Source of the DNA: Segetibacter sp.
GTDB lineage: Bacteria > Bacteroidota > Bacteroidia > Chitinophagales > Chitinophagaceae
Direction: 5' to 3'
Assembly: GCA_028288485.1 (NCBI GenBank)
Contig: JAQBNO010000157.1
Coordinates: 1 to 35,208, forward strand
DNA: 35,208 nucleotides
In this document: in pieces, positions 3,592-9,319 of the stretch
Layout of the letters: the number at the start of each line of letters is the position of its first letter
How positions within the stretch are numbered: position 1 is the stretch's first letter
Made by a program: the position numbers and the translations under genes
Notes under the pieces: model-generated
The model's database searches: none
Seen by the model: only the letters and a program-made list of their open reading frames with translations
Told to the model about the DNA's origin: nothing

Positions 3592-4062
3592 TTACATATT
3601 TGTAACATCAACGTTGCGGCTAAAACTTTCTTCGAGTGAAATAAAAGTTTCTGTTCTTTCGATACCTTTAATCTTTTGCAATTCATCGTGCAAAACATGT
3701 CGTAGCTGGTTTATATTTTTGCACACTATTTCTGCAAACATGCTATAGTTACCGGTAGTGTAATTTAAACGTACAATTTGTGGGATTTTTCTTAGTTCTT
3801 TCACAGCATCATCGTAAAGTGAACTTTTTTCCAGGTAAATGCCAATAAAAGCAATTACATCATAACCCATCGCTTTCAGATCCACATTCAACTTTGTTCC
3901 TTTTACAATCCCTATTTCCTGCAGCTTTTTGATGCGCACATGGATTGTTCCTCCTGAAACAAACAATTTTTTACCAAGGTCAGCGTAGGAAATCTCGGCC
4001 GTTTCCATCATTTCATGTATGATCTGGTAGTCGAGTTTGTCAAGATTTAATTTCGCAGCCAT
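3592..4062 (-). CDS. Lrp/AsnC family transcriptional regulator
   Basis: The 156-residue protein has an N-terminal winged helix-turn-helix (LDYQIIHEMME through the recognition helix ending KKLQEIGIV, about 8-55) and a C-terminal RAM/AsnC ligand-binding and oligomerisation domain (about 65-150). Such regulators usually bind amino acids and control their metabolism as octamers; the effector here is unknown. I start at the ATG at 4062, which gives MAAKLNLDKLD and the usual family length. An upstream ATG at 4101 would add 13 basic residues ahead of the domain and is less likely. The gene points away from the tandem tRNA-like RNA unit that begins 146 bases upstream, so the two may share a divergent control region. 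Confidence 0.9.
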   Translation of the reverse strand: MAAKLNLDKLDYQIIHEMMETAEISYADLGKKLFVSGGTIHVRIKKLQEIGIVKGTKLNVDLKAMGYDVIAFIGIYLEKSSLYDDAVKELRKIPQIVRLNYTTGNYSMFAEIVCKNINQLRHVLHDELQKIKGIERTETFISLEESFSRNVDVTNM

Positions 4063-4208
4063 TTTTAAATATTTTATTGTAAATTTTCTAACTACTCTCA
4101 CAAATATGTGAATTATTTCTAAATATTTAAAATAATACTTGAATAATTTTCAACAAAAAAAGAAAAGTCTGTAATATTGCATTATCAAAGTTCATTGAAC
4201 GGATATAC

Positions 4209-4380
4209 TGTGGGGTGATGAAATTTTTGGCAGACATGCCCTCTTGTCTCGGGGGTGAGGATCACGGGATAAATTTAAGCGTAGAGCCGACTGTTCCTTG
4301 CGTTCGGCCGACCAGGGTTGACCACTAAACTTTGCGTTTAAGCTAACTGCCTCGTGGAGGTTCGACCCCTCCCCCTACAG
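4209..4380 (+). ncRNA. tRNA-like RNA with giant variable arm, copy 1
   Basis: The sequence folds as a class II tRNA. Acceptor strands 4209-4215 and 4373-4379 form 7 pairs (one G-U). A 3-pair D stem (4218-4220/4235-4237) has GG in its loop. The anticodon stem 4239-4243/4251-4255 closes a 7-base loop, TTGTCTC, which would put GTC in the anticodon. A 5-pair T stem (4356-4360/4368-4372) closes the canonical-looking loop TTCGACC. G at 4380 sits in the discriminator position and CCA is not encoded. T8, G26 and T33 are present. Between anticodon stem and T stem lies about 100 bases instead of the usual 4-20. A GAGG/CCTC stem (4257-4260/4350-4353) bounds it, and it contains a 9-12 pair helix (4274-4285/4331-4342) and a hairpin (4286-4290/4304-4308). 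The tRNA body resembles tRNA-Leu, while the GTC anticodon and G73 match tRNA-Asp identity. The function is unknown. Confidence 0.75.
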
Positions 4381-4449
4381 CTATTTGAAGTCTCAATACC
4401 TATGAAAACCAGTTTCTCTAAAATTTATAAAAGAAGTTCTTATTTATAC

Positions 4450-4611
4450 TGTGGAGTGATGAAATTTTTGGCAGACATGCCCTCTTGTCTCGGGGGTGAG
4501 GATTACGGGATAAACGAAGTGTAGTGCCTTCCGCAAGGAAGACCGGGGTGGACCACCACAACATTGCGCTTTGCTAACTGCCTCGTGTAGGTTCGATCCC
4601 TACTTCCACAG
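4450..4611 (+). ncRNA. tRNA-like RNA with giant variable arm, copy 2
   Basis: This second copy begins 241 bases downstream. It keeps the whole fold although paired bases have changed. Acceptor strands are 4450-4456 and 4604-4610, with one G-C pair replaced by A-T. The T stem 4587-4591/4599-4603 has a G-C to T-A change around the loop TTCGATC. The long inner helix is 4515-4524/4564-4573 and includes a T-A to C-G change. The inner hairpin is wholly different in sequence but still pairs: 4528-4532/4537-4541 closed by a GCAA tetraloop. The D arm, anticodon loop, the ACGGGATAAA element and GCTAACTGCCTCGT are identical to copy 1 apart from one base before ACGGG. Such compensatory changes indicate selection on RNA structure. 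A terminator follows within 10 bases. Confidence 0.75.
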
Positions 4612-4617
4612 CTCTCT

Positions 4618-4663
4618 AAGCCTCAACCCTTTCTCAGTGTGTATTTGGTTGGGGCTTTTTTGT
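4618..4663 (+). terminator. Rho-independent terminator of the tRNA-like RNA unit
   Basis: AGCCTCAACC pairs with GGTTGGGGCT (10 pairs, one G-U) around an 18-base loop and runs into TTTTTT. It lies directly after copy 2, so both copies can be made as one short transcript ending here. Confidence 0.8.
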
Positions 4664-6809: not shown

Positions 6810-7159
6810 TTACACGGCTGCCTCATAAACTGATTTTTTGTCATTAAGTCCGAAAATTTTATTTCGTTTTGAAAGGATTTCAACAACTAAGTCAGGAGGT
6901 CCCATTATTCCTTTTTCCCAATCTATAATTTCTGCCCTTTCTTTTGCTACAAACACAATGTCGGGCTGGTATACATTTTTCTCGTTCAAATAGACGTCAA
7001 TGGGGGAATAGAGCACTTCTCCCAGGTCCCCGGCTTCAACTAATCTCTCAATTGCTTCGAAAATCGCTGATGCCCAGGAGTAGGGGCAGGTGAAAGAATT
7101 AATTCATCGTTTATTAGTTGGCATAATGTCCCTTCCGGCATGAATTCAAATGCTTCCAT
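6810..7159 (-). pseudogene. Frameshifted Uma2-family endonuclease gene
   Basis: Two reading frames together give a Uma2 (PD-(D/E)XK fold) protein. An ATG at 7159 starts MEAFEFMPEG and reaches ELILSPAPTPGHQ. The frame then shifts near 7070, and the match continues as AIFEAIERLVEAGDLGEVLYSPIDVYL, then YQPDIVF and PPDLVVEILS to a stop at 6810. The C-terminal quarter, which should carry the KxxxYE helix and final strands, is missing. The gene is therefore broken at least twice. Uma2 proteins are widespread in Bacteroidota and cyanobacteria in many copies. Two related loci lie at 14548-15634. Confidence 0.75.
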
Positions 7160-7267
7160 TCCAGTCCGTGGAGGTTTTATATCTGTTTCCTTATCCCACC
7201 TGTATTTTAATCAAAAGTTTGCAACGTATTAATTGTTACCACTAAATTACAGCTCAAATCATTTGCC

Positions 7268-8086
7268 ATGTCATTTCAAAATAAAACTGCTTTTATTACC
7301 GGAGCGAGCCGTGGAATCGGTAAAGCTATTGCATTACGACTTGCTGCTGAAGGTGCTAACATTGTAGTTGTTGCGAAAAGTATAGAAGAAAACCCTAAGC
7401 TGGGGGGAACCATTTATAGTGCAGCAGTAGAAATAGAAGCAGCCGGCGGTAAAGCATTAGCGGTGCAGTGCGATATAAGAGATGAAAACCAAATTCAACA
7501 AGCGGTAGGTAAAACGGCAGAAACTTTTGGCGGGATTGATATTCTAATAAATAACGCTTCTGCAATATCACTTACTGCAACAGAAAATACAGATCCAAAG
7601 CGTTTTGACCTTATGCACGACATTAATGTACGGGGAACTTTTTTTGTCAGTAAGGCATGCATTCCCTATTTAAAAAAGAGTACGAATGCACATATCCTTA
7701 ACATGTCTCCGCCACTTAATATGAAAAGCAAATGGTTTGGCGGACATGTTGCTTATACGATGAGCAAATACAATATGACGATGATCGCTATCGGACTGGC
7801 AGAGGAATTGAAAAAATATAACATTGCCGCCAACGCATTGTGGCCTAGAACGACTATTGCAACAGCCGCAGTTCAAAACTTGTTAGGTGGAGATACGCTC
7901 ATAAAAATGAGCCGGAAACCTGAGATAATTGCAGACGCAACCTATTATATTCTACAACGATCTTCGAAAGTTTGTACAGGAAATACTTTTATCGATGAAG
8001 AGGTGCTGGCTGCGGAAGGCATAAAAGACCTAAGCAAATATTCAGTTGTGCCGGGAGCGACTTTATACCAGGACTTGTTTATTTAA
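7268..8086 (+). CDS. SDR family oxidoreductase, HSDL2-like
   Basis: This is an NAD(P)-dependent short-chain dehydrogenase of 272 residues. The Rossmann cofactor motif is TGASRGIG (about 10-17), NNAS is near 96, and the catalytic YxxxK is Y-TMSK in HVAYTMSKYN near 165, preceded by the serine of NMSPPL. The segment EENPKLGGTIYSAAVEIEA and the AANALWPRTTIATAA region resemble hydroxysteroid dehydrogenase-like protein 2, whose bacterial relatives are often tied to lipid metabolism. The physiological substrate is not known. It stands alone, with a 237-base gap carrying a family A repeat before neuB. Confidence 0.9.
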   Translation: MSFQNKTAFITGASRGIGKAIALRLAAEGANIVVVAKSIEENPKLGGTIYSAAVEIEAAGGKALAVQCDIRDENQIQQAVGKTAETFGGIDILINNASAISLTATENTDPKRFDLMHDINVRGTFFVSKACIPYLKKSTNAHILNMSPPLNMKSKWFGGHVAYTMSKYNMTMIAIGLAEELKKYNIAANALWPRTTIATAAVQNLLGGDTLIKMSRKPEIIADATYYILQRSSKVCTGNTFIDEEVLAAEGIKDLSKYSVVPGATLYQDLFI

Positions 8087-8323: not shown

Positions 8324-9319
8324 ATGATTATTGCTGAAATAGCACAGGCACACGATGGAAGTGTTGGAATTTTACATTCTTATATTGATGCACTTGCCGG
8401 CACCGGCATCGATGCCGTTAAGTTTCAAACCCATATTGCAGAAGCGGAAAGCAGTGAATTTGAACCCTTCAGGATACCTTTTAGTTACGTTGATAAAACC
8501 CGCTACGATTACTGGAAACGGATGGAATTATCGACGGATCAATGGAGGGAAGTAAAGGAACATTGTCATAGAGCGGCGCTAACATTCATATCATCGCCTT
8601 TTTCCTGCAAAGCAGTAGATGTTTTGGAAGAGGCGGGCGTAGACACGTATAAAGTTGGTTCGGGAGAAGTGACGAACCTTTTATTGTTGCAGAAAATAGC
8701 CCTCACAGGGAAGCCCGTGATTATTTCGAGCGGTATGAGCAGTATGCACGAACTGGAAGCTGCCGTTTCGCTTTTTAAGCAAAAAAATATAGATGTAGCT
8801 GTACTTCAATGTACTACAGCATATCCTACCTCTCCCACACAGTGGGGTCTACACATACTAAAAGAATTGAAACACCGTTTTAATATTCCTACAGGACTTT
8901 CCGATCACAGCGGCGATATAGTAGCGTGCCTGGCTGCGACAGCTTTGGGAGCAGAAATACTTGAATTTCACGTTGTTTTCGATAAAAGAATGTTTGGCCC
9001 CGATGCGATAGCATCTATAGAAATTGATGATGTGGCACGGCTTGTAAAAGGAGTAAAAGATGTAAGGACTTCTTTACAAAACACCTTCAGCAAGAACGAA
9101 TTGGTGGAAAATATCGGCAGCTTGAAAAAAAACTTCGGAAAATCGCTATGTGTTAACAAGGAATTACCGGAAAACTACGTTATTTCTTTTGAAGACCTGG
9201 AAGCAAAGAAGCCGGCGGGGTATGGAATTCCCCCATCAGCCTATTCAACCATCGTTGGAAAGAAGCTGGTTAAAGGATTAAGACAATGGGATTTTTTAAA
9301 TTTTGAAGACCTAACTTGA
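8324..9319 (+). CDS. neuB: N-acetylneuraminate (nonulosonate) synthase
   Basis: This enzyme condenses phosphoenolpyruvate with an N-acyl hexosamine such as ManNAc to make a nine-carbon sialic-type acid in the cytoplasm. The 331-residue protein opens with AEIAQAHDGS, the NeuB barrel start. It has VKFQTH (about 32-37), FISSPFS (about 86-92), YKVGSGE, VIISSGMSS, VLQCTTAYP, GLSDHS and EFHVVFDKRMFGPD, all hallmarks of the TIM barrel. A C-terminal antifreeze-like SAF domain follows (about 270-331, KSLCVNKELP). It is the first gene of a tight neuB-neuC-neuA set. Legionaminate or pseudaminate synthases are close relatives; the NeuC partner favours a ManNAc-derived product. Confidence 0.9.
   Translation: MIIAEIAQAHDGSVGILHSYIDALAGTGIDAVKFQTHIAEAESSEFEPFRIPFSYVDKTRYDYWKRMELSTDQWREVKEHCHRAALTFISSPFSCKAVDVLEEAGVDTYKVGSGEVTNLLLLQKIALTGKPVIISSGMSSMHELEAAVSLFKQKNIDVAVLQCTTAYPTSPTQWGLHILKELKHRFNIPTGLSDHSGDIVACLAATALGAEILEFHVVFDKRMFGPDAIASIEIDDVARLVKGVKDVRTSLQNTFSKNELVENIGSLKKNFGKSLCVNKELPENYVISFEDLEAKKPAGYGIPPSAYSTIVGKKLVKGLRQWDFLNFEDLT

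Follow-up and report, generated by a model that had tools for sequence, protein, structure and literature searches.

Two tandem tRNA-like RNAs in the genome of a Segetibacter species belong to a family, apparently undescribed so far, that recurs in Bacteroidota and in viral contigs. Judged by its bases, this RNA combines a Leu-type tRNA body with a tRNA-Asp-like anticodon loop and a tRNA-Asn-like acceptor end. We propose that it is a non-decoding tRNA to which AspRS would attach Asp for amidation by GatCAB, and which would thereby replace an asparagine synthetase under the control of an asparagine-sensing, AsnC-type regulator; we put the probability of this reading at roughly 0.57.

The window, by which we mean the whole 35,208-nucleotide stretch of DNA that was analysed, yielded these two copies as its sole matches to the family model, and blastn across the 6.4-Mb genome likewise detected the RNA nowhere else. 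In both copies an acceptor stem of 7 bp, a D stem of 3 bp, an anticodon stem of 5 bp closing a 7-base loop, a T arm and G73 can be recognized, so the tandem pair of cloverleaves described in the original prediction, confirmed by the two model matches, stands as claimed (Table 1). The replacement of the variable loop by about 100 bases was also sized correctly (~97 and ~87 nt), but its nature needs amendment: it is an extended, branched variable arm of class II, and compact as well as near-ordinary-arm members occur in the family. In copy 1 this arm is laid out as a 4-bp stem, a bulge, a 3-bp stem, a GAUAAA/CUAA internal loop, and an outer helix with hairpins. An odd tRNA with a removable insert, one of three options first entertained, is not supported, as no sign of splicing was seen and the internal-loop sequence of the arm is conserved in most compact members. 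The terminator thought to close the unit corresponds to a terminator-like hairpin and T run 3' of copy 2. A gene for a NeuB-family synthase (window 8324-9319) follows the RNA pair at a distance of about 3.7 kb.

Table 1. Positions of the RNA pair, its parts and its flanking elements in the window
Feature	Position	Strand	Basis or detail
Copy 1 of the tRNA-like RNA	4209..4380 (T1 to G73; C74 at 4381)	+	Model match 4208-4381, 98.7 bits
Copy 2 of the tRNA-like RNA	4450..4611 (T1 to G73; C74 at 4612)	+	Model match 4449-4612, 94.9 bits
Anticodon loop, copy 1: UUGUCUC (G34 U35 C36 U37 C38)	4244..4250	+	Sequence, pattern position
Anticodon loop, copy 2: UUGUCUC	4485..4491	+	Sequence, pattern position
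Extended variable arm, copy 1 (~97 nt)	4257..4353	+	RNAalifold on 43 relatives; inner-stem pair counts
Extended variable arm, copy 2 (~87 nt)	4498..4584	+	Sequence; RNAalifold on 43 relatives
Conserved element AGGGUUGACCACU in the arm of copy 1	4314..4326	+	Conserved alignment columns
GGGGUGGACCACC, counterpart of AGGGUUGACCACU in the arm of copy 2	4545-4557		Conserved alignment columns
Intrinsic-terminator-like hairpin and T run, 3' of copy 2	4619..4663	+	Read from sequence
Intergenic region, regulator to RNA	4102..4208	.	Layout common to 115/164 cellular loci
Divergent AsnC-type regulator gene (Lrp/AsnC family)	3592..4101	-	Pfam, NCBIfam and PDB matches

The structural claim leans on covariation, because the folding energies of the single sequences showed no advantage over shuffles (z of -0.31 and -1.23). 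Among 26 compact members, 14 of 27 pairs had changed on both sides while 96.7% of cells were paired (0/500 shuffles); among 39 distinct model-found members the figures were 16/27 and 98.8% (again 0/500), in an alignment fitted to the model and containing some sequences that had also served to build it. RNAalifold, applied to 43 relatives, reported double changes in 17 of 36 pairs and recovered the branched arm. By these pair-change tests against shuffles the RNA has a cloverleaf with covarying helices, and the homologues with covarying stems that the original prediction looked for do exist. A candidate acceptor stem of 8 bp, with base -1 paired to G73, was dropped, base -1 being A in 47 of the 280 sequences.

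Searches against known RNAs were largely empty. ARAGORN reported no tRNA in the window, and an Rfam scan of the window at gathering level returned nothing, RF00005 and RF00023 included; a permissive scan gave a single lncRNA match (E 1.2), which we take as chance. The RNA was likewise without an Rfam match at eight more loci, some cellular and some viral, so that the known Rfam family whose existence had been considered at the outset did not emerge. With the class II tRNA-Leu and RF00005 tRNAs the RNA shares its cloverleaf, Leu-type D arm and C74, but in the window and in the eight further loci it falls short of the RF00005 gathering score, it has G73 where the three listed tRNA-Leu genes of this genome have A73, its arm reaches about 100 nt, and its bases 33 and 37 are mostly of non-decoding type. 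Identity with tmRNA was rejected, in agreement with the first impression: the window has no RF00023 match, and the genome has a separate tmRNA on contig C185. The RNA resembles tmRNA in its tRNA-like end, and some viral loci hold both, but it has a full anticodon arm and no mRNA-like part was seen in it. The window sequence gave only short blastn matches in INPHARED (E 0.2-0.6) and none in PLSDB; a query with a viral member matched one unannotated phage record. The open-licence literature searched yielded no account of an RNA of this kind.

The family is a large one. When this genome and 58 relatives were searched by blastn, 39 of the 59 matched at E<=0.1 (four of these only at 0.02-0.1), and all nine other members of the genus matched at E<=5e-35. 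Among 395 genomes of the phylum, 31, this one counted, matched a pattern allowing up to two mismatches. The matches listed from collection scans include Chitinophaga, Hymenobacter, Pedobacter, Dyadobacter, Algoriphagus, Saprospiraceae and other Bacteroidota, and, outside the phylum, one Ignavibacteriales MAG (L079) and many IMG/VR viral contigs. At least 280 distinct sequences could be parsed, 205 from 164 cellular loci (counted singly, so several may share one genome) and 75 from as many viral contigs; 20 of the 343 pattern matches were left unparsed. Lengths run from 88 nt, in a viral form with an ordinary class-II arm, to more than 200 nt, and the arm contains GACCAC in 120 of the 205 cellular and 65 of the 75 viral sequences.

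Copy number and arm size vary locally. The RNA occurs in three tandem copies at L161 (311-874) and L096 (from 3383), and at L026 (1606-1724) and L028 (1755-1877) a full-length copy is adjoined by a second copy with a shrunken arm, which has lost the UUGACCAC hairpin and largely kept the internal-loop sequence. Decayed copies in three genomes (G127, G548 and G583) were among the weakest positives of a class-wide model search. Members with A34, U34 or C34 were seen at L385 (in G127), L061, L064, L089 and L098, and the loop of the U34 member is that of this genome's tRNA-Glu with base 37 changed; such members possibly reflect a switch to Glu/Gln, or decay.

Because the search pattern had partly forced bases 35-38 in the scan-derived sets, loop statistics were drawn from 41 model-found copies at 30 loci, which include the window's two and some model-building sequences. 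U35 and C36 were found in all 41 and the full G34U35C36 in 40; C38, G73, U1-A72 and G2-C71 were likewise present in 41/41. Among the 280 parsed sequences G73 and G2-C71 were invariant (280/280), and U1-A72 nearly so (274/280). Other positions behave differently. Bases 33 and 37 are needed for decoding, and here base 37 was U in 31 copies, G in six and C in four, never A, and base 33 was U in 33 and G in eight; the decoding-compatible combination of U33 with G37 occurred in 6/41; both copies in the window combine U33 with U37. Compared with the CUGUCAC of this genome's tRNA-Asp, their loop, UUGUCUC, is changed at positions 32 and 37, and many members carry CUGUCUC, in which base 37 is the sole difference. 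The D arm is of Leu type, with a longer D loop in the window copies, and in some members, among them the shortest viral form (L287), it is that of this genome's tRNA-Leu(UAG). U1-A72 together with G73 is also found in this genome's tRNA-Asn, and C74 is shared with 21/21 of its tRNA genes listed. The Leu-like body, the Asp-like anticodon with G73 and the odd U37 had all been read correctly in the original prediction.

The retained bases coincide with known marks. In the excerpted account of PMC9976931, G73, G34, U35, C36 and C38 are determinants for Asp, with G2-C71 a minor one, whereas amidation is marked by U1-A72 and blocked by G1-C72 and U20a; the tRNA-like RNA lacks the G1-C72 of tRNA-Asp, and its base 20a is A. 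The same excerpt describes G1-C72 as strictly conserved in bacterial tRNA-Asp, where it helps to place the end in E. coli AspRS, a role from which it follows that a discriminating AspRS may charge an RNA with U1-A72 less well. Of the options first entertained, the evidence speaks most for an aminoacylatable RNA with a new task. A tRNA mimic that regulates, another of them, is possible; it leaves unexplained why the AspRS and amidation determinants should be the conserved bases.

In the mechanism that we propose, a tRNA-Leu derivative would have been reshaped into a carrier that does not decode and is dedicated to making asparagine. AspRS would load Asp onto the RNA by way of the anticodon GUC, C38, G73 and G2-C71, and GatCAB would read U1-A72 and convert Asp-RNA to Asn-RNA. 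The altered base 37, a base 33 that is sometimes not U, and the sheer size of the variable arm would bar the RNA from the ribosome, so that Asp codons would not be misread as Asn. Asparagine would then be freed from Asn-RNA, and the level of the RNA would be set by the divergent, Asn-sensing AsnC-type regulator, in the way that AsnC controls asnA in E. coli. The loading with Asp, its amidation, the barring from the ribosome, the freeing of asparagine and the regulation are all steps that we infer, and release at a useful rate requires a deacylation step, which counts against the carrier proposal. There is, by our estimate, barely better than an even chance that the RNA amounts to a third, RNA-based asparagine synthetase, i.e., an out-of-translation tRNA scaffold, dedicated to making an amino acid, which combines three tRNA identities, answers to a sensor of asparagine and travels in viruses together with their tRNA sets. 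If so, an amino acid would be made on a tRNA that does not translate, separating tRNA-dependent biosynthesis from decoding, and the retention of GatCAB by many Bacteroidota that have AsnRS and GlnRS, without AsnA and the usual AsnB, would be explained. A natural tRNA that kept chosen synthetase and amidotransferase marks and lost those for the ribosome would also offer a clean test of identity rules, and would constitute a new class of virus-borne RNA.

The association with the amidotransferase was followed through a set of 247 genomes from the class, among them the present one, in which the RNA, GatB, AsnRS, GlnRS, AsnB-like proteins and AsnA were compared. The RNA was scored as present in 45, at a model E<=1e-15 or, for G146, as a known positive missed by the model search, which scored at most 15 candidates per genome; the 45 include the three decayed copies. 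With GatCAB judged by GatB, all 45 RNA-positive genomes have it; in the whole set GatB is matched at any level in 193/247 and over cut-off in 185/247. GlnRS is over cut-off in 83/247. Where GlnRS coincides with a typical GatB, both the RNA and AsnRS are present in 22/22 genomes, and where GlnRS occurs without GatB (48 genomes with no match and 5 with weak matches) the RNA is found in 0/53. Eight GlnRS-bearing genomes of family f85 (G457, G496, G527, G555, G581, G607, G630 and G653) are exceptions, with a divergent GatB (E 1e-103 to 1e-108) and no RNA; with these counted, the association in the GlnRS-bearing set has a Fisher value of 8e-14, genomes being taken as independent of phylogeny. Contrasts within families agree: G074 in f1, G060 and G177 in f22, and G547 in f75 lack both RNA and GatB, and their sisters have both. 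These counts and contrasts argue that GatB, unneeded for decoding in such genomes, is kept where the RNA is, f85 apart. An earlier survey of 14 Bacteroidetes, as excerpted, records GlnRS together with gatCAB in one only (PMC3927822).

We had predicted beforehand that RNA-positive genomes would lack AsnA and true AsnB, and that RNA-negative genomes would have one of them. TIGR01536 proved too broad to mark true AsnB, being over cut-off in 227/247 genomes (482 bits in this one), and the AsnB equivalog NF006949 was run on 61 hand-chosen genomes, comprising 31 of the 45 RNA-positive genomes and 30 of the 202 RNA-negative ones, the latter weighted toward relatives and GlnRS-bearing genomes. The equivalog was over cut-off in 0/31 RNA-positive versus 13/30 RNA-negative genomes (p=1.8e-5). 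AsnA occurs in two of the 45 RNA-positive genomes and in 8/202 of the others, and both AsnA-bearing RNA-positive genomes have an altered RNA (anticodon CUC in G221; AUC, with the arm lost, in G127); altered or decayed RNA is also seen without AsnA, in G548 and G583. The RNA-negative half of the prediction failed in part, as 16 of the 30, including G074 of f1, have neither AsnA nor the AsnB equivalog, so that lacking both is not special to genomes with the RNA. Among genomes without RNA and GatB, G060 of f22 has AsnA and AsnB, G177 of f22 has AsnB, and G547 of f75 has AsnA. In f88, AsnB is present in G498 and G556, which lack the RNA and match GatB weakly, G608 has the RNA and no AsnB, and G460 has none of RNA, GatB, AsnA and AsnB. 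As TIGR01536 paralogs are widespread, another source of asparagine may exist; in the RNA-positive G447, which is 100% complete, AsnA is missing and the best TIGR01536 match is at 2.3e-13.

The rival that survives best is one that we consider unlikely, at about one chance in five: a non-discriminating AspRS and GatCAB would form asparagine on ordinary tRNA-Asn, the route known from Bdellovibrio, and the RNA would be a regulator or sensor only, its charging state reporting, for example, the supply of Asp or Asn. This genome's tRNA-Asn does carry U1-A72, the AsnC-type neighbor would suit a sensor, and there is precedent: PMC4206432, in excerpt, shows the route in other bacteria with AsnRS, GlnRS and GatCAB and no AsnA/AsnB, and names Bacteroidetes among 18 genera with that gene content. 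By itself, however, the tRNA-Asn route forecasts neither constant AspRS determinants and U1-A72 beside variable bases 33 and 37 in the RNA nor the joint absence of RNA and GatB. The carrier that we propose would share with tRNA-dependent asparagine synthesis in Deinococcus, Thermus and Bdellovibrio (AspRS and GatCAB acting on tRNA-Asn) its need for both enzymes, its U1-A72 mark and its occurrence, despite AsnRS and GlnRS, in the apparent absence of AsnA and the AsnB equivalog. It differs in being a separate RNA, with a Leu-type body, a GUC loop, a changed base 37 and a large arm, which would not decode, which adjoins an AsnC-type gene, and for which a discriminating AspRS might suffice.

The adjoining gene matches Pfam AsnC_trans_reg; its best NCBIfam model is AsnC PRK11179 (158.5 bits, below the cut-off of 227), and its best PDB match is E. 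coli AsnC, 2cg4 (115.6 bits versus 72.4 for the next). A homologue lies divergently upstream of the RNA in 115/164 cellular loci, with a gap of 101-252 bp measured from the homology edge, and no AsnC-type gene was seen in any other orientation among the 164. A further 38 loci are without the regulator, as are 11 in which fewer than 700 bases upstream are present; in the model-found set, whose loci partly overlap the 164, the gene occurs at 21/30. The arrangement recalls E. coli, in which asnC is divergent from an asparagine-making gene, asnA, across a gap of 151 bp, and, according to an excerpt of PMC4482635, AsnC activates asnA unless Asn is present; there the partner is the AsnA enzyme, here an RNA. 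Three promoter patterns were tried on the 115 divergent regions. TTG-N16-22-TAnnnTTG, which we take to be the promoter pattern from the Bacteroidota consensus, matched 55 of them, versus a mean of 5.5 and a maximum of 11 in shuffles; the window's own intergenic region has no match to it, and TAnnTTG at the same spacing was not enriched (10/115 versus 6.6 in shuffles). No AspRS, AsnRS, AsnB, GatB or AsnA gene was linked to the RNA at E<=1e-8 in 335 loci (2.34 Mb), and in 10 loci of RNA-negative genomes AsnC was not found beside AsnA or AsnB (one weak match, E 0.026).

It seems improbable that the RNA donates Asp or Asn to a non-ribosomal product (a lipid, the cell wall or a peptide) instead of supplying free asparagine. 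Non-decoding tRNAs that feed other pathways include the staphylococcal cell-wall tRNA-Gly, the precedent for such a donor, and Bacillus tRNA-Other; both resemble the RNA as aminoacyl carriers kept from decoding, but they differ in amino acid, structure, phylum and proposed product. An AsnC-type gene was the sole neighbor seen in most compared loci, with no conspicuous acceptor enzyme, and that all 31 RNA-positive genomes tested lack the AsnB equivalog points instead to asparagine supply.

Viral copies suggest a further alternative, to which we give slightly less credence still: an RNA for translation control, or a decoy for the ribosome, a synthetase or a nuclease, carried by viruses along with tRNA and tmRNA sets. 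ARAGORN scans of 50 viral loci turned up one or more tRNA or tmRNA genes in 33 (tmRNA in six) and none in 17, a company that fits replacement of the host's stable RNA set, short of proving a role. A decoy would not need to keep U1-A72 or to accompany GatB, and an ordinary tRNA-Asp stands beside the RNA in four viral loci (L225, L237, L255 and L279). That it is simply a decoding tRNA-Asp with an odd variable arm is most improbable, since in spite of its GUC anticodon, the six loops with U33 and G37, and three short forms called tRNA-Asp by ARAGORN (L201, L252 and L385), 35 of 41 loops depart from U33 with G37, this genome has an ordinary tRNA-Asp, and U1-A72 would invite amidation and misincorporation of Asn. 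Two viral contigs hold other notable RNAs: L252 (3960-4367) matches both the tmRNA family and that of permuted tmRNA, in overlapping stretches, and L237 (IMGVR_UViG_3300047553_000511) carries a GOLLD RNA at 6933-7342 (268 bits) amid 25 ARAGORN tRNAs and a tmRNA.
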